NCBI RefSeq assembly: GCF_019551435.1 | Contig: NZ_CP080544.1 | Location: 310,001-374,000 of the forward strand | Length of the DNA stretch: 64,000 nucleotides | Direction: 5' to 3' | Source: Lysobacter soyae | Lineage (GTDB): Bacteria > Pseudomonadota > Gammaproteobacteria > Xanthomonadales > Xanthomonadaceae | Shown here: piece after piece, positions 18,512-29,864 of the stretch | How the letters are laid out: every line of letters begins with the position of its first letter | How positions within the stretch are numbered: the stretch's first letter is position 1 | Notes under the pieces: model-generated | The model's input: only the letters and a program-made list of their open reading frames with translations | Databases searched by the model: none | What the model was told of the DNA's origin: nothing | Made by a program: the position numbers and the translations under genes

Positions 18512-19206
18512 TGCCCATGGCGCCGCTGCTGCGCCTGATCGGTGTCATCGCCTATTTCTGGATGGCGCATCGCGCAATCGAAAGCGGAAGTGAGCTGTTC
18601 GCCGGTGTTGCCTTGGGCTTGTTGGTCTTCATCGTTTTTGTGGGTCGCCTATTGTTGGCGGAGCGCAAAGCCATCTTGATCAGCGGCGCATTGATTGCCC
18701 TGATTGTCGTGCTCGTTGCCACCCGTTATGCACTGACGAGTTTGTTGTTCGTGCCGACCATTTTCCTGGCATTGGCCGCAAGCTTGTTCGGCCGCACCTT
18801 GATCAAGGGCCGCACGCCCTTGTTGGTGACCGCGGCGAGTTTGGTCGAGGCAGTCAGGCCCGGCGATCTCGAAGCTGACGTTCGCACTTACACGAGGCGT
18901 CAAACCTGCGCATGGGCGGTGTTGTTGTCAGTACTTGCGGTGTTCAATCTGTTTTTGGCGTTGGTGGCAACGCCTGATGGTGTGCTTGCACGCATCGGTC
19001 ATCCGGTGGGGGGACTGGTCAGCTCTGAAGCCGCAACCCGGCTGATGCCCTGGGTGATCTATCTTTCGGTGGCGGGTTTTCTGGTTGGTGAATTCATCTA
19101 CCGGCAGAGGCGATTTCCGGGGCGCTACAAGAGTGCGTGGGATTACGTGCAAAAATTGGCGAAAGTGCCCATGAAGTCGTGGCAAACGGCGTTCGAGCAA
19201 CCATGA
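18511..19206 (+). CDS. COG4648-like membrane protein of aryl polyene loci
   Basis: A 231-residue protein with about six hydrophobic segments: near 4-20, 28-48, 52-70, 76-90, 132-152 and 178-196. It ends in a basic amphipathic tail (RRFPGRYKSAWDYVQKLAKVP). Conserved aryl polyene clusters carry a similar membrane protein, whose role is unknown; it may recruit the soluble machinery to the inner membrane. Start and stop both overlap neighbouring genes, showing translational coupling. Assignment rests on topology and position more than on a motif. Confidence 0.68.
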   Translation: MPMAPLLRLIGVIAYFWMAHRAIESGSELFAGVALGLLVFIVFVGRLLLAERKAILISGALIALIVVLVATRYALTSLLFVPTIFLALAASLFGRTLIKGRTPLLVTAASLVEAVRPGDLEADVRTYTRRQTCAWAVLLSVLAVFNLFLALVATPDGVLARIGHPVGGLVSSEAATRLMPWVIYLSVAGFLVGEFIYRQRRFPGRYKSAWDYVQKLAKVPMKSWQTAFEQP

Positions 19207-19961
19207 GCGCCACCCTTACAAGCGGCGGTTTGCCCAAGCGCATTTGGAATACTGCGCAGTTTGCCTTCACGTTGTTGTTCACCTTCGTGTCGATTGCGTC
19301 GGTGCTCGCGTATCACGCCGTCACCCGTAACACTGACGCCATCCTGCGTGCCGCCTCATTCTGGTGGTCGAAAGTTCTTTTCATCGGTGCGCGCGCTACT
19401 TTGGTTGTCGAAGGGGCGGATGTCATTGATTGGTCGACGCCCTACTTGATTGTTTGCAATCACGCTTCGGTCATCGACATCCCCACCATGTTCCAAGCGG
19501 TGCCTGTGCCCCTGCGATTCCTGCTGAAAGAGGAAATGAATCGCATGCCGATGGTCGGGCTGTATGCGCGCCGGACCGGCATGTTGTTCATTGACCGTGA
19601 CAACCCGCGGGCGGCGCCCAAAATGTTGCGCGACGCGGCGACGATGCTCTCCGAAGGCAAGTGCCTGTGCGTCTTTCCGGAAGGCACACGCAGTCGCAGC
19701 GGCGACATCGGCGAGTTCAAGTCGGGGCCTTTCGAGGCCGCCATCAAAGCCGGCGTGCAAGTGCTGCCCGTGTACTTGAGCGGTACCGGTCACGTTCTGC
19801 CGAGTGATGGATTCGCGGTCAATCGCGGCACGATTCGCGTGCATTTCGGTACCCCGCTGGCCACCCGAAACGCGGAAGGCGGCAAGGTGGATCGAAACAC
19901 TTTGGCGCAAGCGGCGCAGCAGCAAGTGACCGCGATGCGTTCACAACGTGGCGGCCAATGA
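19203..19961 (+). CDS. 1-acyl-glycerol-3-phosphate acyltransferase family (PlsC-like) protein
   Basis: A 252-residue acyltransferase with an N-terminal hydrophobic anchor (about residues 18-38). The catalytic box NHASVIDIP (HxxxxD) is near residue 86, followed by FLLKEEMNRMPMVG and FPEGTRSRSGD near 158, the glycerophosphate or acceptor-binding motif. In aryl polyene loci such enzymes are thought to transfer the polyene, or an accompanying acyl chain, onto a lipid or sugar-lipid carrier. The start at 19203 is chosen from the ATGA overlap; an upstream in-frame codon would run into the previous gene. Confidence 0.87.
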   Translation: MSATLTSGGLPKRIWNTAQFAFTLLFTFVSIASVLAYHAVTRNTDAILRAASFWWSKVLFIGARATLVVEGADVIDWSTPYLIVCNHASVIDIPTMFQAVPVPLRFLLKEEMNRMPMVGLYARRTGMLFIDRDNPRAAPKMLRDAATMLSEGKCLCVFPEGTRSRSGDIGEFKSGPFEAAIKAGVQVLPVYLSGTGHVLPSDGFAVNRGTIRVHFGTPLATRNAEGGKVDRNTLAQAAQQQVTAMRSQRGGQ

Positions 19962-20236
19962 AGTTTCGTATCGGCGCAGACCATCCGGCTCTCCCTGGCC
20001 ATTTCCCGGGGCAACCGATTGTGCCGGGCGTCGTGATTCTCGACCAGGTGCAACGCGCGATCGAGCACGAAGCCGGTGCGGCATCGCGATTGAAATTGTC
20101 GCAGGTCAAATTCCTGAATCCGCTGTTACCGGAGGAAGAGGCCGAGCTGACTTTTCAGGCGCAGGGTGACGGGTTCACATTCGTGGTATCGCGAGACGCC
20201 ACAATGCTCGTGACAGGGCAGATGATTTTGTTATGA
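19958..20236 (+). CDS. short hotdog-fold 3-hydroxyacyl-ACP dehydratase (FabZ/ApeI-like)
   Basis: A 92-residue single hotdog domain. HPALPGHFPGQPIVPGVVILDQ contains the catalytic HFPGxPxxPG signature of FabA/FabZ dehydratases, with the His near residue 15. It is shorter than FabZ (about 150), as seen for compact aryl polyene dehydratases. It would dehydrate hydroxyacyl-ACP during chain growth, alongside the second dehydratase at 24117. Both ends overlap neighbours by four bases. Confidence 0.82.
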   Translation: MKFRIGADHPALPGHFPGQPIVPGVVILDQVQRAIEHEAGAASRLKLSQVKFLNPLLPEEEAELTFQAQGDGFTFVVSRDATMLVTGQMILL

Positions 20237-21231
20237 CGGAAACTTGGACCGACCGCCCGGAAGGAGGCGGACATTTTGCGTTGTGGCTGATCCGTACCAT
20301 CGCGCGCAAGTTGGGCCGTCGCATTGCACGTCTGCATCTGTATCCGATCACCGCCTATTTTTTGGTGAAGCGTGCACCCGAGCGGCGGGCGTCCATGGCC
20401 TATTTGGAGCGCGCACTCGGACGTAAAACCAGTTGGTTGGATGGCGCAAAGCACGTTCACACCTTCGCCTCGACGATTCTCGATCGCGTCTTCCTTCTCG
20501 GTGGCCCGCTGGACCGTTTCACTATCGAAGTGGAAGGCGTGGACGAGCTGCATGAGAAGCTCGACGAGGGCCGCGGCTTGCTGCTGTTCGGCTCGCACCT
20601 TGGCAGTTTCGAAGTGCTACGCGTCATTGCACAGCGTCGCCCTGACTACACCATCAAAATTGTGCTGGACAAAGCACAAAATCCGGCATTGACCCGATTG
20701 TTAGACGCGCTGAATCCAACGCTGGCGCGCAACATCATCGATGCGTCGCAAGACGGACCGACCATCGTTACTGAAATTCAACACGCGGCCAGCCAAGGCG
20801 CCTTGGTCGCGTTGTTAGTGGATCGTGTGCGCCCGGGTGAGCCAGCGCTGCCTGCGCAGTTTCTGGGTGCAACCGCGCGCTTTCCGACCTCGCCGTGGCT
20901 GATTGCCGCTGCCTTGAAAATACCGGTGACCTTGGGCTTCGGTTTATATCAGGGTGGCAATCGCTACAAGCTGGTTTTTGAACTGTTCGACAACGCTGTT
21001 GAAATCCCGCGTAACGCGCGCGCGCAAAGTTTGCAGGCGCTCATCCAGCGTTTTGCATCGAGGTTGGAACATTACGTAAAGCTTGAACCGTACAACTGGT
21101 TCAATTTCTACGATTTTTGGGAGTCTGAAGATGAACTTGTCTCACGTCACGCGTTGGATGACGCTGCTGTGCAGCGCCGCACTGCTTGCCGCGCTCGCCC
21201 TGCCGACAGCGCAAGCCAGCACCCCGGTTGA
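20233..21231 (+). CDS. lysophospholipid/lipid A acyltransferase family (HtrB/LpxL-like) protein
   Basis: A 332-residue LpxL-superfamily acyltransferase. The N-terminus RTIARKLGRRIARLHLYPIT is typical of aryl polyene family members. GSHLGSFEVLR near residue 118 supplies the H(x4)E catalytic pair, followed by LVDRVRPGEPALPAQFLG near 193. The fold probably ends at NWFNFYDFW near residue 296. The last 36 or so residues (rich in Arg and Ala) overlap the next gene by 101 bases and look non-native, as if an original stop were lost. Probable role: attaching the polyene acyl chain to a lipid carrier. Confidence 0.83.
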   Translation: MTETWTDRPEGGGHFALWLIRTIARKLGRRIARLHLYPITAYFLVKRAPERRASMAYLERALGRKTSWLDGAKHVHTFASTILDRVFLLGGPLDRFTIEVEGVDELHEKLDEGRGLLLFGSHLGSFEVLRVIAQRRPDYTIKIVLDKAQNPALTRLLDALNPTLARNIIDASQDGPTIVTEIQHAASQGALVALLVDRVRPGEPALPAQFLGATARFPTSPWLIAAALKIPVTLGFGLYQGGNRYKLVFELFDNAVEIPRNARAQSLQALIQRFASRLEHYVKLEPYNWFNFYDFWESEDELVSRHALDDAAVQRRTACRARPADSASQHPG

Positions 21232-21787
21232 CGCCGGCTGGGTATTGACCAAAATGGCGCGCCCGGCGCCGATGCGTACGCAATTCGTGGAAGTGCGCAG
21301 CTCGCGCTATTTGAAAACGCCGCTTCGCATCTACGGTGAATACAGTCGTCCCGACAACATCTCGATGGTGCGCACGGTCGTGGCGCCGTATTCGGAAGTG
21401 ACCAAACTTCAGGGCAGCACCGCCACCATTACGCGGGGCAGCAGTGTACGGACGTTTTCCTTGAGTCGTGTGCCGGAATTGGCAGGCATGCAGGCCAGTT
21501 TCGGCGCTTTGCTGAGCGGTGATCAGTCGGCATTGAAGAAGGATTTTTCGGTCACCTCCACAGGCACCCGTGAACAATGGACCTTGCTGATGACGCCGAA
21601 AAACGCAGCCCTGGCGAAACAGATTCAAGACATCACCCTGTACGGCAGGGGCGCCGAGCTTCGCTGCATTGAAACGCGCGGCAAAGCACAAGGGCAAATG
21701 CAGCGGACCTTGCTGGCTTCGGCGGCCGCTGCGATCAAAGGGCAAACGTCGGACTCGGTGTTGGTGGCCACTTGTCACGGACAATGA
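21131..21787 (+). CDS. LolA-related outer-membrane lipoprotein carrier-like protein
   Basis: A 218-residue exported protein with a Sec signal peptide: a basic start, a hydrophobic core LLCSAALLAALALP and a likely cleavage after TAQA near residue 29. The mature part is a single LolA-like half-barrel (RSSRYLKTPLRIYGEYSRPDNISM, LQGSTATITRGSSVRTFSL). Such proteins in aryl polyene loci probably ferry the lipidic pigment across the periplasm, fed by the MMPL protein encoded next. The ATG at 21131 is chosen because it starts the signal peptide. The overlap of 101 bases with the upstream gene is unusual. Confidence 0.82.
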   Translation: MNLSHVTRWMTLLCSAALLAALALPTAQASTPVDAGWVLTKMARPAPMRTQFVEVRSSRYLKTPLRIYGEYSRPDNISMVRTVVAPYSEVTKLQGSTATITRGSSVRTFSLSRVPELAGMQASFGALLSGDQSALKKDFSVTSTGTREQWTLLMTPKNAALAKQIQDITLYGRGAELRCIETRGKAQGQMQRTLLASAAAAIKGQTSDSVLVATCHGQ

Positions 21788-24120
21788 GGCCGCTATCGGC
21801 GACATGGCGGGTGTCGCTGGCCCTGCTGTGGTTGGCTGTCTTGGTCGCCATCGGTGTGTGGCAGAGCCGCCACCTGCAAATGAGCGGCGATCTGCGCAAG
21901 TTCATGCCTTCCGCTGAAACGCCTGCACAAAGATTTCTTATGGACGAACTCGGCGAAGGGCCGGGTTCGCGTTTGTTGTTGATGTCTGTGGAGGGCGCAC
22001 CGGCGGATGCCTTGGCGGCGCAATCGCGCCTCATGCAAGTGAAGCTGGCGGGCAACGCGGATTTCGTCTTGGTCTCGAACGGCGGCATGAGAGGTCTCGA
22101 TGCCATTCCGGCGCGTTTGCGCAGCTACCGATATTTACTCAGTAACTCGGGTGTCCATCTGGATCGCGATGCTTTGTCATCTGCATTGCAGGAACGCTTG
22201 GCGGATTTGGGCTCGCCGGCTGCGGCGATGATCGAACCGCTATTGGGTGCCGACCCCACGCTGGAAACGCTCGCGCTTGCCCAACAATGGCAGCCCGCCA
22301 ACGGGCCGCAAACCATTGACGGTGTTTGGTTTGATGCCGCCGGAAAGAAAAGCCTGTTGCTCGCGCAAACACGCGCGGCGGGATTTGATCCGACCGGTCA
22401 AGAACGCGCCGTTGCCGCCATCCGCACGGCCTTTGAAGCGAGCCGCCGCGAGGTGCCCGCCGCTTCCGGTGCGAAGTTGACCTTGACCGGCCCGGGTGCC
22501 TTCGCGGTGGAGATCGGCGGGCGGACTTCAAAAGAAGCATCAATGATCGGCACCATCGACGGCATCGCGCTGTTCATCCTGCTGATCCTGGCTTATCGCA
22601 GCTGGCGTACGCCGATTTTCGGAGCGCTGCCGTTGGCGACCGCCGGTGTTGCAGGTTTGGCTGCGGTCGCCCTATGTTTTGACGGCGTGCACGGCATCAC
22701 GGTGGCCTTCGGTTTCACCTTGATCGGTGTGGTCCAAGATTACCCGATCCATTTGTTATCCCATCAACGCGCGGGCATTTCGCCTTGGGATAACGCCAGA
22801 AAAATTTGGCCGACATTGGCCACGGGTGTCGCCTCGACCTGCATCGCGTATTTCACATTCCTTGCGTCGGGCGTGGACGGTCTGAAGCAACTGGCGGTGT
22901 TCACGGTGGTTGGCTTGGTCAGTGCTGCGCTCACCACGCGATGCTTGCTGCCGGCGCTGATTGATCCTGCGCCGCGAGATCCGGCCGATTCACGCGCGTT
23001 GTCGCGTCTTTGGTTTCAGGTCGAGCGCATTCCACGCGCGCCCAGATGGGTGCTGGCCGGTATCGCGGCGGCGTCCCTGGCGGTGATTGTCTTGTCGCCT
23101 GCGGGGTTTTGGGAAAACGATCTGTCGAAGCTGACGCCGGTCCCGACAGCGGCCCTGAAGCAGGATGAGCAATTGCGCAGTGCGCTTGGCGCACCCGATG
23201 TGCGCTACGTGATCGCATTGCAAGCCAATACGGCGGATGCGGCCCTGCGCCGGTCGGAGCAACTCCAACCGAAGTTGGATGCCCTGATGGCTGACGGCGC
23301 CATCCAAAACTACGACATGGCTTCGCGTTATTTGCCGAGTGCGGAGAAACAGCGTACCCGGCAAGCGGCATTGCCGGATCCGGCGACCTTGCAACAGGCA
23401 CTTGACGCCGCATTGGTCGACACCGATTTCCGTGCGGATGTCTTTGGCGATTTCCTGCGTGATGTGGAAACTGCACGCACGGCGCCGCCCCTTCGATTCA
23501 ACGATTTGAAGGGCACACCGCTCGAATCCTCCTTGGGCGGCCTTCTGTTGCAACGCGAAGGGCATGCGACGGCATTGGTCTCGCTATCGGGCATTCGCGA
23601 TGCGAGTGAAGTTCAAAGGGTGTTGTCGACTGACGGCGTGCAACTGTTGGACTTGAAGGCCGCATCCGAATCTTTGGTCATCGCTTATCGTCAGCGCGTT
23701 TTGTGGTCGTTGCTGGTGGCCTCCGTCCTGTTGGTGATGACGGTCTGGTTCGCCCTCAAACAACGTCACCGCGTGGTGCGCGTGTTGCTTCCCATGAGCT
23801 TGAGTCTTCTGTTGATCTTGGCGGTCTTGCGGGGGCTCGGCATCGAGCTGAACTTGTTTCATTTGGTTGCCTTCATTCTGGCGGCGGGCCTCGGACTCGA
23901 TTACGCCCTGTTCTTTGAGCACGCCGGTGATGATCGTCCCGACCAGTTGCGCACTTTCCACGCCTTGATCGTCTGCAGTCTGACCACGGTGCTGGTGTTC
24001 TTCCTGCTGGCACTCTCGAGCATTCCGGTACTGCGCGCGATCGGGTTGACCGTCACCTTGGGCGTGATTTTCAATTTTGTTTTGGCGCTATGGATTGCAC
24101 GGGCACCGACACGGGCATGA
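21784..24120 (+). CDS. MMPL/RND-type exporter of the pigment locus
   Basis: A 778-residue inner-membrane protein in the MMPL branch of the RND superfamily. It has one N-terminal helix (about 8-26), a large periplasmic domain, a five- to six-helix block (about 250-400) with HGITVAFGFTLIGVVQDYPIHLLSH, a second periplasmic domain, and a C-terminal block from about 640 including FILAAGLGLDYALFFEH. The Asp residues in these helices fit proton-driven transport. It probably extracts the finished polyene lipid and hands it to the LolA-like protein. The start overlaps the previous stop (ATGA). Confidence 0.88.
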   Translation: MRPLSATWRVSLALLWLAVLVAIGVWQSRHLQMSGDLRKFMPSAETPAQRFLMDELGEGPGSRLLLMSVEGAPADALAAQSRLMQVKLAGNADFVLVSNGGMRGLDAIPARLRSYRYLLSNSGVHLDRDALSSALQERLADLGSPAAAMIEPLLGADPTLETLALAQQWQPANGPQTIDGVWFDAAGKKSLLLAQTRAAGFDPTGQERAVAAIRTAFEASRREVPAASGAKLTLTGPGAFAVEIGGRTSKEASMIGTIDGIALFILLILAYRSWRTPIFGALPLATAGVAGLAAVALCFDGVHGITVAFGFTLIGVVQDYPIHLLSHQRAGISPWDNARKIWPTLATGVASTCIAYFTFLASGVDGLKQLAVFTVVGLVSAALTTRCLLPALIDPAPRDPADSRALSRLWFQVERIPRAPRWVLAGIAAASLAVIVLSPAGFWENDLSKLTPVPTAALKQDEQLRSALGAPDVRYVIALQANTADAALRRSEQLQPKLDALMADGAIQNYDMASRYLPSAEKQRTRQAALPDPATLQQALDAALVDTDFRADVFGDFLRDVETARTAPPLRFNDLKGTPLESSLGGLLLQREGHATALVSLSGIRDASEVQRVLSTDGVQLLDLKAASESLVIAYRQRVLWSLLVASVLLVMTVWFALKQRHRVVRVLLPMSLSLLLILAVLRGLGIELNLFHLVAFILAAGLGLDYALFFEHAGDDRPDQLRTFHALIVCSLTTVLVFFLLALSSIPVLRAIGLTVTLGVIFNFVLALWIARAPTRA

Positions 24121-24572
24121 AGGACGATTTCGCCGCAGTTCCGATCGAGGCACTGGTTCCGCACAAGGGCGCTATGTGCTTGTGGGAGCGCGTCGTCGCA
24201 TTCGATGCTGACTTCGTTGAATTGGAAACGCAAAGCCATCGGTCGCCGGACAATCCCTTGCGCTCTGAGGGTAGCTTGCGTGCCATCCACTTGTGCGAAT
24301 ACGGCGCACAAGCGATGGCCGTGCATGGCGGTTTGCTCGCGCAGCAAGGCGGCGAGGCGCGCAAAGGCTATTTGGTTGCGCTGCGCGGCGTAGACATCCG
24401 TTTGCCGCGAATCGACGACCTGACGTCGGCACTGCGCTGCCAAGCACGACTTTTGATGAACAGTGATGCGAGTCAGCAATACGAATTTCGATTGATGCAT
24501 GCAGGTGAATGCATTGCAGAGGGAAGGGCGGCAGTTATGCTCGCGCCGAAGGGAGATGCACGTGATGAATGA
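24117..24572 (+). CDS. hotdog-fold dehydratase (ApeP-like) of the pigment locus
   Basis: A 151-residue hotdog protein. IEALVPHKGAMCLWERVVAF matches the N-terminus of ApeP-like 3-hydroxyacyl-ACP dehydratases, with the catalytic His near residue 17. AIHLCEYGAQAMAVHGGL carries the acidic partner and central helix. In E. coli aryl polyene synthesis two dehydratases act together; the pair here (with 19958) agrees. The start at 24117 is the ATGA overlap with the exporter gene. Confidence 0.82.
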   Translation: MKDDFAAVPIEALVPHKGAMCLWERVVAFDADFVELETQSHRSPDNPLRSEGSLRAIHLCEYGAQAMAVHGGLLAQQGGEARKGYLVALRGVDIRLPRIDDLTSALRCQARLLMNSDASQQYEFRLMHAGECIAEGRAAVMLAPKGDARDE

Positions 24573-25299
24573 AGCAAAGAAGAAGCGCGCACTGGTGACC
24601 GGCGGTTCGGGGGATATCGGATCGGCGATCTGCGTCGCCCTTGCGGACCAAGGCGTCCAGGTCATCGTCCATGCGAATGGCAATGTGGCCAAGGCGCAAG
24701 CGGTGGTGGATGGCATCTGCAAAGCGGGCGGCACGGCAGTGGCCGTCGCCTTCGATGTGACCGATGCGTCGGCGACGGCGAATGGGCTCGAAGCGCTTTT
24801 GAAAGAAGGGCCGATCGACATTGTGGTGAACAACGCCGGCATTCACGACGATGCGCCGATGGCCGGCATGTCGCATGCGCAGTGGCAGCGCGTTATTGAT
24901 GTGTCTTTGAACGGTTTTTTCCATGTGACCCAACCGTTGTTGCTGCCGATGGCGCGGCAACGTTGGGGGCGCGTGGTGTGCGTGTCGAGCGTGGCCGCAA
25001 CCATGGGAAATCGCGGCCAGACCAACTACGCGGCAGCCAAAGGCGCGTTGCACGGCGCGGTCAAATCTTTGGCGCGCGAAATGGGCAGCCGCGGCATCAC
25101 GGCCAACGTGGTGGCGCCAGGCATCATCCGCGGCAGCATGACCGAGGGCGTGTTTGACGAAGCGCAAATCAAGGCCACGGTGCCCGCGGCGCGCGCAGGC
25201 ACGCCGCCAGAAGTTGCGGCGCTGGTAGCGTTCCTTTGCAGCGACTCGGCCGCTTACATCAACGGCCAAGTCATCGGCATCAACGGCGGAATGGCCTGA
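24565..25299 (+). CDS. 3-ketoacyl-ACP reductase, FabG-like SDR (ApeQ-like)
   Basis: A 244-residue classical SDR. TGGSGDIG near residue 12 binds NADPH, NNAG is near 88, the catalytic Ser lies in VSSVAATMG near 140 and the YxxxK pair in NYAAAKGALHG near 154. It reduces beta-ketoacyl-ACP in each extension cycle. The ATG at 24565 is preferred because GGGAG lies nine bases upstream; a nearby ATG at 24556 overlaps that site. It ends the plus-strand operon three bases before the convergent stop of the second halogenase. Confidence 0.9.
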   Translation: MNEAKKKRALVTGGSGDIGSAICVALADQGVQVIVHANGNVAKAQAVVDGICKAGGTAVAVAFDVTDASATANGLEALLKEGPIDIVVNNAGIHDDAPMAGMSHAQWQRVIDVSLNGFFHVTQPLLLPMARQRWGRVVCVSSVAATMGNRGQTNYAAAKGALHGAVKSLAREMGSRGITANVVAPGIIRGSMTEGVFDEAQIKATVPAARAGTPPEVAALVAFLCSDSAAYINGQVIGINGGMA

Positions 25300-25302
25300 G
25301 GC

Positions 25303-26919
25303 TTAAGCCGCGGCGTACCAAACCGGTTCGAGCAATGCGCTGGCGGGGCGTTGCAGATCTGTCGGCAGTTTTTCTTCGAGCGCGCTGAGATCAACGCCCG
25401 GGCAACGCGTCCGGATCACGTCGGCAATTTCAGCCGCCAAAGTCGCCAGTTGGCGCACATTGGCGTCGATCTTGCGAATGAATTCGGCGTCGGACAATTC
25501 GTCTCGCAGCGAGCGATTCAATTCTTTGAACCATTCGATTTTGTATTGGTCGAGCAGGCGACCGTCAGCCGGTTGGCCATGGCCGCTGGCTTCGTGCCAC
25601 GCGCGCAGCAAGGGCTGCATCACGGCATTCAATGCGCTGGCCAGCTCCATGGTGGGACGCAGCCTTGACAGCACGCTCAGGTTGGCGATGCGTCCGGACA
25701 TGTACAGGGGCGCCAGCAAGGCCCAGTAATAGGTGTAGTCCCAAACGACTTTGACCGGCATCACCAAGGCGTTGCCGAAGATCGGGTACTGATCTTGATA
25801 CAGCGTCATGGTGTTCTCGTGGAAACCGAACAGCAGTTGCTGATAGATCTCGGCGTGCATGTCGAACGCCTGACCCGCCAGATCCTTGCAGATCATGTCG
25901 CAGATATAGGTGTTCGAGATGGCGATGAAGTCGCTGCCCGGGGAGTAGAAGGGATCCGGGAACACACCGGCTTCGCCGGTCAGTGCCCAGCGATGCTTCG
26001 AGTACACCTGTTTGCAGTCGTGTGAGAAGTGGCGCAGGAACTTGAAGTCGATGAACGCATGTTCTGGCTTCAGCAAACTCTCGTGCACCTGAGGTTGATG
26101 CTTGGCCAACCAGTTCATGAATTTCTCATGGGTGTTCATCGTGTCGAGCGGATGAATCGCTTGATCGGCCACGATTCCCACCGAGTGCGCATTGGATGAC
26201 AGTGGAATCAACCAGATCCAATAGCCTTCGCCGCAGAGGTGGTTCGTTGCGCGCCAACGTTCGCGCGGTGTGCAACGGTCCAGCCATACTTCGTCGTTGG
26301 ACCACAGATTCGGATCCACGCAGCCTTCCACGCGCGCCCAAGCGGAATTGACATCGTGTGCGTTCGGTTTGGTCAAATCGAGTTTGCGTTTCAGCAGGCT
26401 GGCGCGTCCCGCCGCGTCCACCACCCATCGTGTATTGAGGTGTTTACGCTCACCGGCCTGATCGAACGCCACTCGGTGCAAGCCGCCGTTTTCATCAAGA
26501 TCGATTTGCTTGACCGCGGCATCCGTCAACACGGTCACGCCGGCGCGCAGTGCGTGATCCATCAGGAAGTTTTCAAAGCGACCGCGGTCCAACTGCCATG
26601 AGGGCGTCGGTAACAGCATGCTGACACCGATCTCGGCGCAATCTTCGATGCGTTGCGCGCAGTCGTTGAAATAGAAGCGAAAGCCGAACTTACGAATTTG
26701 ATCGCTGTTCAGATGCTCGGAAAGACCTAGGTCGACACTGTAATAATGCGCGCCGATTTCCACTGAAGATTCGCCGACTTTGAAACCGGCGTCAGGTGCC
26801 GGGCCGTTACGTCGTTCGAGTACGACGATGTCGGTTTCGGGGCGCGCTTGCTTCAGTTGCAAGGCCAGTGTCAGACCGGCCAGGCCACCACCCAGAATGC
26901 AAACCGAAGTGTTATTCAA
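25303..26919 (-). CDS. FAD-dependent halogenase-like protein (pigment locus, second copy)
   Basis: A 538-residue flavin-dependent halogenase-like protein. GGGLAGLTLALQL near residue 10 binds FAD, FKVGESSVEIGAHYY near 47 is the VGES segment, and IRKFGFRF near 76 carries lysine in the KxGxxF context of the catalytic halogenase lysine. GYWIWLIPLSSN near 228 gives WxWxIP. GEAGVFPDPFYSPGSDFIA follows near 312. The 100-residue C-terminal region is extra relative to the first copy. Last gene of the minus operon after the ketosynthase fusion and glycosyltransferase. A dehydrogenase or isomerase role is the alternative. Confidence 0.8.
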   Translation of the reverse strand: MNNTSVCILGGGLAGLTLALQLKQARPETDIVVLERRNGPAPDAGFKVGESSVEIGAHYYSVDLGLSEHLNSDQIRKFGFRFYFNDCAQRIEDCAEIGVSMLLPTPSWQLDRGRFENFLMDHALRAGVTVLTDAAVKQIDLDENGGLHRVAFDQAGERKHLNTRWVVDAAGRASLLKRKLDLTKPNAHDVNSAWARVEGCVDPNLWSNDEVWLDRCTPRERWRATNHLCGEGYWIWLIPLSSNAHSVGIVADQAIHPLDTMNTHEKFMNWLAKHQPQVHESLLKPEHAFIDFKFLRHFSHDCKQVYSKHRWALTGEAGVFPDPFYSPGSDFIAISNTYICDMICKDLAGQAFDMHAEIYQQLLFGFHENTMTLYQDQYPIFGNALVMPVKVVWDYTYYWALLAPLYMSGRIANLSVLSRLRPTMELASALNAVMQPLLRAWHEASGHGQPADGRLLDQYKIEWFKELNRSLRDELSDAEFIRKIDANVRQLATLAAEIADVIRTRCPGVDLSALEEKLPTDLQRPASALLEPVWYAAA

Positions 26920-26937: not shown

Positions 26938-27702
26938 TCAAGATTTGAAAATACGAGCCGGATTGCGCCGGACATTCCGGTACTCGCGTACCACATGACC
27001 GTACGACAACACCTGCGCCACCACGTGTGAGGTGATGTTGTAGAGGTCACGGAAGAGTCGGAAATGACTCTTTCGAAACGCCTCGGCGGCGTCAGGCGAT
27101 GCGTAACGGGCTTCGATCGGCACACAGACAATGCCCGCGCCGGCTTCGCGTGCCGCTGAGATCAGCAGCTGGGCTTCAAAGACGAAACCTTCGCCGGCAA
27201 CCCCTTCCAATGCCATCACGTTTCGCGGATACAGTCGCTGGCCACTCTGCGTATCGACCACGCCGTAGCCGCAACCCCAGCTGATGCCCCAGTCGCCGAA
27301 GTCGTTGCCAAGACGCCGATACCAAGGTTGCGATGCGCGCTTTTTCATCCGTGCGCCGATGATGACATCGCCGGGATGGGCGTTGGCGGCTTCGATCAGC
27401 CGTGGAATGTCTTTGGCCAAATGCTGTCCGTCGCCATCCATGGTGGTCACCGCGAGCGCCCCCATCGCCAGTGCTTGTTTGAAACCGTCGCGCAATGATT
27501 GGCCTTTGCCCATGCGCTGCGGGTGTCGAATCAGCGTAATGGCTTGGTCTTTGACCAAATCTCCGGTGCCGTCATCAGAGCCATCATCAATGACGATGAC
27601 CATGTCGGCATAGTTCAAGGCATCTTGAACGACTTCGCGAATACGCAGGCGCTCGTTCAAAGCGGGAATGACCACCGCAACGTTGTGGCGATCAAGCATC
27701 AT
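26938..27702 (-). CDS. family 2 glycosyltransferase of the pigment locus
   Basis: A 254-residue GT2 enzyme of the polyprenyl-phosphate sugar synthase type. NVAVVIPALNERLRI is the N-terminus, IDDGSDDGTGDL is near residue 38, TTMDGDGQHLAKDIP near 91 is the metal site, and SGQRLYPRNVM is near 150. There is no C-terminal membrane pair. In aryl polyene loci such transferases may build the sugar or lipid anchor that receives the pigment. Start and ketosynthase stop overlap (ATGA); the halogenase follows 18 bases later. Confidence 0.86.
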   Translation of the reverse strand: MMLDRHNVAVVIPALNERLRIREVVQDALNYADMVIVIDDGSDDGTGDLVKDQAITLIRHPQRMGKGQSLRDGFKQALAMGALAVTTMDGDGQHLAKDIPRLIEAANAHPGDVIIGARMKKRASQPWYRRLGNDFGDWGISWGCGYGVVDTQSGQRLYPRNVMALEGVAGEGFVFEAQLLISAAREAGAGIVCVPIEARYASPDAAEAFRKSHFRLFRDLYNITSHVVAQVLSYGHVVREYRNVRRNPARIFKS

Positions 27703-29864
27703 GCCGGTTGTCTCAACTCCACGCGCAATACGCGGCCATTGCCGGCGTCCAAATCGACTTCGCCATCCGCGTTTCTGGCCATCAGGTCGAACAAGGGCAA
27801 CATGCGCGACATGCGGTTGTCTTGCAATAGTGATGCCAGCGCATTGTCATTAGCATCGGCGACCCCTTCCAAGAACCGGGCGCGCAGACGGCAACCGCCG
27901 GGCTGACGCGACAAGACCAAGCCGCCGCCGAGCAAGCCCCGCCCGGTGCTGACGCTGGCAAGCGGTCCGACGGCAGCGGTATCAAAGGCGGAAAGCAGCA
28001 CAGCCTCCTCACCCGATGCGATTTGAACCAGTGCTTCCATCAAACCTTGCGCAAACGTCGCGTAATAGGCGCTCACCGCGCTCGACGCTGCCATGCAGCC
28101 TTGTCCGATGGTCCAGTAACCGGCGGCCGCGTTGTGCACCGAGTTGTGGAACTTGGTCGGTGAAATCGACTCAGGTGCATCACGCAACGTTGCGCAGACA
28201 TAGTCGGTGATGCCGAGATCGCCGTCGGTGCTGGCGAAAATTGATGCCAAGGTTTTCGGATCGCGACCCGACATCGTCACCGCCGACTGCGCCACTTCAA
28301 GGGCCACAGCGACGGAGTCCGGTGCGCGTCGACGCTCATTCGCCGGCAGCATTTGCGGCGAAGGTTTGGCCGGCGCGCTTTCCGGCAGTGCGCCGCTGGC
28401 AACGAATGCTTTCGCATCTTCCCAGCTGGGTAATCCGCTGCTCCAAAAACCGATGCCTTCCACTCGGGCTTCTAGGGGGGTGTTTGAGGAGCGCCTCATC
28501 TGCCCCTTCGGGGCATCTTCTCCACGGCGTGGAGAAGAGGGGGATTCTCCCTTCTCCACACCGTGGAGAAGGTGGCGCGCAGCGCCGGATGAGGCGCCTT
28601 TTTCCTTCTCCACGCCGTGGAGAAGGTGGCGCGCAGCGCCGGATGAGGCGCCTTCCCCACCCCACCCAAAAACCAAAGAACAATTGTTCCCACCAAACCC
28701 AAACGAATTATTCATCGCCACCCGAACCGGCATTTGCGCCGGCGCAAAGCGGATTTGCGGACCGCACACCGGGTCAGGCGTTTGACTGTTCAACGTGCCA
28801 GGAACGAAACCTTCTTCGAGCGCGATCAATGCGAACACCGATTCGACAATGCCGGCGGCGCCCAAGGTGTGACCCGTCCAACCTTTGGTGGAGGCAGCAT
28901 GCAGCGTGGCCGGAAACATCGCCTTGATGGCGATGGCTTCCACTTGGTCGTTCGCGGGTGTCGAGGTGCCGTGCAGATTCAAGTAATCCACCGCTCCAGC
29001 GCCGAGGCCCGCGCGATCCAATGCCGCTTGCATGGCCATCCGCGCACCCAGGCCTTCCGGATGCGGCGTGCTCATGTGATGCGCATCGCTAGATTCGCCG
29101 TAGCCGAGTAACAGCAAACCGTCTTCCTGCGCGCCGGCCCGCTCAAGCACGGCAAATCCACCGGCCTCGCCGAGAGAAATTCCGTTGCGATGCTGATCAA
29201 ACGGCTTGCAAGGTTCGGCAGACACCAAGCCCAAGGAATTGAATCCGAACAGCACACTGCCGCACAACGTATCAACGCCGCCGACCAAAGCGGCATCCGC
29301 TTCACCGGTTGCAATCAAGCGCGCTGCCTGGGCAAAGACCTTGGCACTGGAAGAGCACGCGGTGGCAACCGTGATGCAGGGACCGCGCACACCCGTGGCG
29401 TGTTGCAGGAAGTTGCCCAAGGAGTGGGGCGTGTGCACGATGGCGCGGTCGTATTTTTCAGAGAAACGCCCGTCGTCTGTCAGTTGAGTGTAGGCGTCCT
29501 CGCTCTCGCCGATGCTGGCGGTGGAGGTACCCACAACTAACGCGACGCGCTCCGCGCCATAGCGGTCCTTCATTTGATCCACGCATTCAAGCACGGCGTC
29601 TTGCTGCAAGCTGAGCCAGGCCAAACGATTGTTGCGGCACTCCCATTGCGACCACTCCGCCGGGAGCGCTGCGTCTTCCACGCCATCCACGCGACCGATG
29701 TGGCAAGCGAGTGGTGCGGTGCTGAAATCATTCGCCCGCAAGCCGCTGCGCTCGTCGCGCAATGCTGCCATCTGGGCTTGGCGTCCGTGTCCTAATGCCG
29801 TGGTGGCCGTATAGGCGCGCACTGCCAAGGGCGCCATGGGGGTCAGGGTCTTCGCTGGTGTCAC
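27699..29864 (-). CDS. ketosynthase fused to a chain-length-factor-like domain through a repeat-encoded linker
   Basis: One uninterrupted frame of 721 codons. Residues 1-400 form a FabF-type ketosynthase with TVATACSSSAK (Cys170), NLHGTSTPAND (His298) and KGWTGHTLGAAG (His332), the complete Cys-His-His triad, ending in the usual NNSFGFGGNN. Residues about 404-457 are a low-complexity linker with two near-identical 18-residue units, encoded by palindromic repeats also found outside genes. From about 458 a second domain, EARVEGIGFWSSGLPSW to FLEG, resembles the ApeC-like chain-length-factor partner that other aryl polyene loci encode separately; its catalytic context is degenerate. The start may be GTG 29864 (after a TATAAT box and AAGAAG) or ATG 29837. 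It heads the minus operon. Confidence 0.82.
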   Translation of the reverse strand: MTPAKTLTPMAPLAVRAYTATTALGHGRQAQMAALRDERSGLRANDFSTAPLACHIGRVDGVEDAALPAEWSQWECRNNRLAWLSLQQDAVLECVDQMKDRYGAERVALVVGTSTASIGESEDAYTQLTDDGRFSEKYDRAIVHTPHSLGNFLQHATGVRGPCITVATACSSSAKVFAQAARLIATGEADAALVGGVDTLCGSVLFGFNSLGLVSAEPCKPFDQHRNGISLGEAGGFAVLERAGAQEDGLLLLGYGESSDAHHMSTPHPEGLGARMAMQAALDRAGLGAGAVDYLNLHGTSTPANDQVEAIAIKAMFPATLHAASTKGWTGHTLGAAGIVESVFALIALEEGFVPGTLNSQTPDPVCGPQIRFAPAQMPVRVAMNNSFGFGGNNCSLVFGWGGEGASSGAARHLLHGVEKEKGASSGAARHLLHGVEKGESPSSPRRGEDAPKGQMRRSSNTPLEARVEGIGFWSSGLPSWEDAKAFVASGALPESAPAKPSPQMLPANERRRAPDSVAVALEVAQSAVTMSGRDPKTLASIFASTDGDLGITDYVCATLRDAPESISPTKFHNSVHNAAAGYWTIGQGCMAASSAVSAYYATFAQGLMEALVQIASGEEAVLLSAFDTAAVGPLASVSTGRGLLGGGLVLSRQPGGCRLRARFLEGVADANDNALASLLQDNRMSRMLPLFDLMARNADGEVDLDAGNGRVLRVELRQPA
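28487..28654. repeat. dispersed palindromic repeat array inside the ketosynthase fusion
   Basis: Three hairpins with arms of CTTCTCCAC and its complement around three-base loops lie at 28517-28537, 28550-28572 and 28604-28626. Two of them are part of a 54-base direct repeat (28550 and 28604) that also contains TGGCGCGCAGCGCCGG and ATGAGGCGCC. The first is in the opposite order, preceded by GCGCCTCATC and a CCCC-TTC-GGGG hairpin. The same modules occur at 33072-33248 and 34404-34577 outside genes. The unit length is a multiple of three, so the frame stays open. Confidence 0.9.

Follow-up and report, generated by a model that had tools for sequence, protein, structure and literature searches.

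The genome of Lysobacter soyae (G000) carries a single gene that, judged by its sequence, encodes an ApeO-type aryl polyene ketosynthase (KS) joined in one chain to an ApeC-type chain-length factor (CLF). The explanation preferred here, which is probably right, is that this is a fused ApeO-ApeC of a xanthomonadin-type cluster, in which the fusion is ancestral, a repeat entered later, the chain forms an internal pseudo-heterodimer and the linker is an idle tether. The gene lies in a window of 64,000 nucleotides, the whole stretch of DNA that was analysed, and is made up as follows.

27699..29864, minus strand: KS-CLF fusion gene, 721 codons, GTG start, TGA stop
28656..29864, minus strand: ketosynthase half, ApeO/ORF17 type, residues 1-403, with C170/H298/H332
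28494..28655, minus strand: linker, residues 404-457, encoded by the repeat array; residues 407-457 are predicted to be disordered
27702..28493, minus strand: chain-length-factor half, ApeC/ORF16 type, residues 458-721, PF13723, half-size (about 264 residues)

An open reading frame check of 27699-29864 on the minus strand showed no internal stop over the 721 codons. The first-pass annotation had described such a single frame, and its coordinates, GTG start and length were borne out, with the gene on the minus strand; the triad that it had named, Cys170, His298 and His332, is present in the KS half. The gene downstream begins with an ATG that overlaps this gene's TGA stop. The KS half is FabF-like and belongs to the PRK09185 subfamily (NCBIfam, 507.3 bits against a cut-off of 407), and its nearest solved chains, 7f28_B and 6qsp_A, were the best of 149 matched sequences. 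For the CLF half the nearest solved chains were 6qsp_B (E 8.1e-11) and 7f28_A (E 1e-5). The first half was classed as ApeO-type on its nearest solved relative, which is ApeO, together with its Cys-His-His triad; the second was classed as ApeC-type as a half-size KS-like domain, nearest to ApeC, that stands beside a KS in an aryl polyene (APE) cluster. The proposed identity of the KS and its ApeC-like partner is thus upheld, as PRK09185, PF13723 and the solved ApeO and ApeC chains match the respective halves. VIA-align returned 50 rows, all on the KS half (residues about 6-406), and was uninformative for the CLF half. Two glutamines of the CLF half, one in IGQG and one in FAQG, are candidates for the counterpart of Gln166 in ORF16 of L. 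enzymogenes.

The neighbouring genes are of the kinds listed below.

26938..27702, minus strand: family 2 glycosyltransferase gene, the next gene, in the same direction; NCBIfam matches below cut-offs
25303..26919, minus strand: FAD-dependent, halogenase-like gene; NCBIfam matches below cut-offs
19137..25299, plus strand: acyltransferases, FabA-like and weakly ApeP-like dehydratases, an MMPL exporter and a FabG-like reductase

One of the ten cluster proteins scanned had no match, and the ApeI-like and ApeP-like matches were below the Pfam cut-offs. By its gene content, under criteria that leave ACPs and XanB2 aside, the locus is identified as an aryl polyene/xanthomonadin-type gene cluster, its neighbours being like those in the available text of PMC3691225, and the two halves of the enzyme presumably make a yellow pigment. 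In L. enzymogenes, according to the available text of PMC3691225, deletion of ORF16, there a separate CLF, or its Q166A mutation abolished the pigment.

The claim that the two halves are separate genes at other loci was confirmed by comparison with homologues. Over all sources in which both halves were read, KS and CLF were separate in 93 of 95 and fused in the other 2; six of these records duplicate genomes already counted, leaving 87 separate and 2 fused among 89 distinct sources. On this count the fusion is taken to be the derived state. The only two fused sources are the L. soyae genome and that of its sister species, G011, and the case of one linker-free fusion in all relatives, which had also been envisaged, does not hold. 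Where KS and CLF are separate genes they mostly meet in an ATGA overlap, and a four-base overlap was present in 96 of 116 loci, a count in which a genome may recur. Of the first 30 KS loci, 27 had a separate adjacent CLF, mostly with ATGA, one (L030) had no CLF match, and two were the fusions (L001 from G000 and L002 from G011). Open frames of fewer than 600 codons were excluded as fusions by length, because a KS-CLF fusion needs about 650 codons, and the 34 longer ones were read individually. In the survey of the family, a CLF match at E 1e-40 was obtained in 104 of 159 genomes. No KS-CLF pair was matched at E 1e-60 in 2 of the 17 genomes of the genus (G001 and G012), suggesting that these two have lost the pigment cluster. 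Locus L030, from the same family, holds a fusion of another kind (L030:1042-2793:-, genome G021), in which a KS is joined to an ApeP-like dehydratase in 584 codons (PF00109, PF02801, PF22817) and a CLF match is absent from the locus.

The joint of the L. soyae gene is occupied by an array of three repeat units and contains an in-frame ATG.

28605..28626, unstranded: palindrome of repeat unit 1, CTTCTCCACGCCGTGGAGAAGG, with its tail at 28626-28651
28551..28572, unstranded: palindrome of repeat unit 2, with its tail at 28572-28597
28491..28538, unstranded: repeat unit 3, inverted, with its palindrome at 28517-28538 and a different tail at 28491-28516
28497..28499, minus strand: in-frame ATG, Met456, a candidate internal start for a free CLF

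Units 1 and 2 have the same orientation and identical tails, and unit 3 is inverted with another tail. In each of two sets of 100 shuffles of the window no match at three or fewer mismatches was obtained. The three palindromes and two exact tails therefore support the proposal that residues about 404-457 are repeat-encoded. That the repeats are non-coding elsewhere is true within the 64-kb window, in which the other palindrome copies (33073, 33193, 34407 and 34527) lie between long genes, but fails for the genome as a whole, as several housekeeping genes include coding copies. The array spans the joint, with five of six frames open. The codon-usage score of the fusion gene beside it is modest: both sides score 0.13, compared with 0.18-0.36 at the four other coding copies. 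This score, and the reliance on one genome per species (G000 and G011), would fit an assembly or base-calling error that merged two genes. Such an error is very improbable, as G000 is one contig and 99.91% complete, the coding frame that scores best does not change across the array and the second genome is also fused.

The stretches of G000 that were read contain at least 73 palindromes and at least two tail-only places, in at least 54 clusters. No frame was open through the array and its flanks in 45 of the 53 clusters scored, which is what copies outside genes or at their ends should show, and eight had one. Five of these eight gave their best coding signal in the open frame on both sides (KS-CLF, IcmF, PurL, ValRS and Nudix/ThiE); the other open clusters, L201, L202 and L115, were dropped for a weak or absent coding signal. 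One copy in IcmF, at the edge of its locus, went unscored in the test, which also did not flag an insert near the C-terminus of HemD. Besides KS-CLF, the proteins with repeats are as follows.

L205:45-2933:+, valyl-tRNA synthetase (ValRS) with an in-frame repeat, genome 1869827
L204:1-3864:-, PurL with an in-frame repeat, genome 1859315
L197:17-3697:-, IcmF with an in-frame repeat at two sites, the second degenerate, genome 1337047 and 1335183
L203:2085-3110:+, Nudix/ThiE protein with an in-frame repeat, genome 1818507
L069:481-1596:+, HemD-like protein with a repeat near the C-terminus, genome 51586; HemD model match below the curated cut-off

Compared with G011, the inserts add 16 residues to PurL, 16 to ValRS, 10 at the first IcmF site and about 30 to Nudix/ThiE, and at the second IcmF site the repeat replaces a native stretch. 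The orthologues of ValRS, PurL, IcmF and Nudix/ThiE in G011, G013, G009 and G006 are without the repeat. In 60-base windows on 40 palindromes, 4.9 of six frames were open on average, compared with 3.4 for shuffles, and the element is thus easily translated. By its many short copies, its inverted arrays and its location mostly outside genes, the family is judged REP/BIME-like. Exact-stem palindromes number 46 on the forward strand of G000 (45 on the reverse, nearly all in the same places), one in G011 and none in the 15 other members of the genus. The sole G011 copy (L128:1502-1523, G011:C1:615274-615295) lacks a tail and could be a terminator-like element that seeded the family expanded in G000.

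A single Y1_Tnp (RAYT-like) gene was found in G000 (G000:C1:1485827-1486150, L222). Its 3324-base locus contains no copy of the linker palindrome, and a RAYT-driven origin of the linker repeat was rejected on this ground; inverted copies of another short repeat occur there near 1230 and 2200. No consistent GTAG or CGTC tag was present within 30 bases of the 46 copies (GTAG/CTAC, 3 and 3; CGTC/GACG, 2 and 1). A search of Rfam gave five rows with E up to 0.1 (MIR1437 twice, RsmW, Mcr7 and RRE), which are far below the gathering scores and were taken as chance.

The first-pass annotation had held that a repeat insertion removed a stop and a start and so tethered the pair. This is unsupported, since G011 is fused through a repeat-free joint of 60 nt; the repeat as cause is set back further by the expansion of the family only in G000. 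Nor was a convincing second copy of the G011 joint found in its own genome with a 115-base query. Apart from itself and, over query 2-39, the matching KS end in G006, this query had weak matches, the best at E 0.0097 (KS end) and 0.06 (within the joint). A repeat origin of the G011 joint was rejected on this basis. In the KS tree and the CLF tree alike, G000 and G011 pair as sister taxa with 100/99 support; their identities are 81% (KS) and 72% (CLF). The joint of G000 is 192 nt long, and that of L. silvestris, with its ATGA, about 20 nt; between VFG and the CLF core there are 64 residues in G000 and 20 in G011. Stop codons are absent from both fused joints. In-frame ATG, GTG and TTG are all absent from the joint of G011, so a free CLF is unlikely in that species.

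These observations would be accounted for if the common ancestor of G000 and G011 had lost the stop/start overlap ATGA and its two frames had been brought into register, giving the fusion. A REP-like palindromic element, multiplied in G000, would later have entered the tolerant joint as an inverted array and lengthened it by 132 nt (44 residues) relative to that of G011. By eye, no similarity is evident between the two joints, and the non-repeat remainder of the G000 joint is about 31 nt by a rough cut, not a multiple of three; we therefore infer the order of events by parsimony. With this remainder, a clean insertion of the repeat into an in-frame linker is not shown.

It is unlikely, though the dissimilar joints would suit it, that the repeat itself abolished the KS stop and the CLF start in the G000 lineage and that G011 became fused independently. 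An array that spans the joint and is open in nearly every frame could act in this way, and at some sites (the second IcmF site, ValRS) the repeat does replace a native loop, but two events would be needed in sister species when none is seen in the 87 remaining distinct sources, and G011 demonstrates that fusion is possible without the repeat. A single event would suffice if the repeat had fused the common ancestor and G011 had afterwards lost or rewritten it, and one exact-stem palindrome does persist elsewhere in the G011 genome. That palindrome is tail-less, however, no relic is present in the G011 joint, and G011 lacks the element in ValRS, IcmF, PurL and Nudix/ThiE, which makes this second course less likely still. 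An ancestral fusion with later entry of the repeat is therefore preferred.

Synonymous differences between G000 and G011 are saturated (pS 0.75 for KS and 0.71 for CLF), with pN 0.13 and 0.18, respectively. The pN/pS values of 0.17 (KS) and 0.25 (CLF) indicate that both halves remain under constraint, with dN/dS values unreliable at this synonymous depth.

The structure of the fused chain was predicted with AlphaFold2 using 30 relatives. The best of five models, which was retained, had a mean pLDDT of 83.2 and a pTM of 0.87 (means of the others 82.6, 75.9, 74.8 and 69.9), with residues 407-457 below 50. Foldseek ranked 7f28_B and 6qsp_A first for this model; against 6riw (PfaC KS-CLF) it gave TMq 0.74 over 917 alignment columns, with rmsd 9.0 and 15% identity, the rmsd meaning that the domain arrangement is not closely matched. 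On this model an internal pseudo-heterodimer is the most likely fold of the chain, and the intramolecular heterodimer that had been suggested is plausible, its exact arrangement being left aside by the rmsd of 9.0. The KS half would carry out the condensation and the half-size CLF would help to shape the cavity, the repeat-encoded stretch probably being a flexible tether without a function in itself.

The fusion had also been expected to fix the ratio of the partners. This stands in a weak sense: there is no stop between the halves, so each ribosome that finishes the KS continues into its partner, but the ATGA overlap of most relatives probably coupled the two already. The halves could still be partly separate if a CLF were also started at Met456 or if the linker, predicted to be disordered, were cut by a protease. 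Met456 and two in-frame GTG codons lie within the array. The purine-rich stretch upstream of Met456, the candidate ribosome site, sits inside a predicted hairpin, however, and the RNA of the joint is predicted to fold strongly (-146.2 kcal/mol, z -9.2), so that ribosomes may slow or the start may be hidden. With no ATG, GTG or TTG in the G011 joint, and with free KS requiring cleavage or a broken mRNA in the absence of a stop, partial separation is doubtful, and a single chain is preferred.

In type II polyketide synthesis it is the KS-CLF pair that determines chain length, and a pair that nature has put in one chain is a ready design for single-gene, fixed-stoichiometry use. G000 and G011 together form a natural experiment in which one fusion has linkers of 64 and 20 residues. 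The REP-like element is nearly absent in close relatives yet lies in frame in an enzyme such as valyl-tRNA synthetase, which makes the tolerance of proteins for exonised palindromes testable. A bolder reading, to which we give little credence, is that a translatable palindrome, with about five of its six frames open, has lately spread through a single Lysobacteraceae lineage and is now becoming protein in several core enzymes, and that in KS-CLF it lengthened the tether and re-creates a tunable free CLF through its hairpins and Met456. If that were true, the number of linker repeats would set the geometry or stoichiometry of the enzyme and could differ among strains.

The KS-CLF of PfaC is part of a larger enzyme and its CLF is full-size. 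By the title of entry 6RIW, PfaC of PUFA synthases has KS and CLF in one chain, as in L. soyae. It is a precedent of arrangement, its likeness to the L. soyae protein coming from the fold match alone (15% identity, rmsd 9.0). Closer in pathway are the ApeO-ApeC KS-CLF complexes of Xenorhabdus doucetiae (6QSP) and Acinetobacter baumannii (7F28), which have the half-size CLF and the same pathway type according to the available text of PMC8358021 but consist of two chains, whereas L. soyae has one. In the yellow pigment cluster of L. enzymogenes, as far as the available text of PMC3691225 goes, ORF17 and ORF16 are an adjacent KS and CLF like the L. soyae halves, with a dolichyl-phosphate mannose synthase homologue nearby and a halogenase in some relatives; the two are separate genes, unlike those of L. 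soyae, and the word "fused" is absent from the main text. No description of a fused aryl polyene KS-CLF was found in the accessible text of the open-licence literature.

Translated palindromes also have precedents. Intragenic REPs, including those in tRNA synthetase genes of Xanthomonas oryzae, occur in groups that encode 43-82 residues (available text of PMC3733652), and Rickettsia palindromic elements (RPE) are short palindromes translated inside genes (available text of PMC10969869). In the accessible parts of both papers such elements often stand in genes as dimers or groups, like the L. soyae array. The L. soyae repeat differs from them in sequence and genus, and its likeness to RPE, drawn from the papers, is in the mode of insertion. 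One-chain KS-CLF enzymes and translated REPs are each known; the novelty, a modest one, is their meeting in an aryl polyene enzyme.
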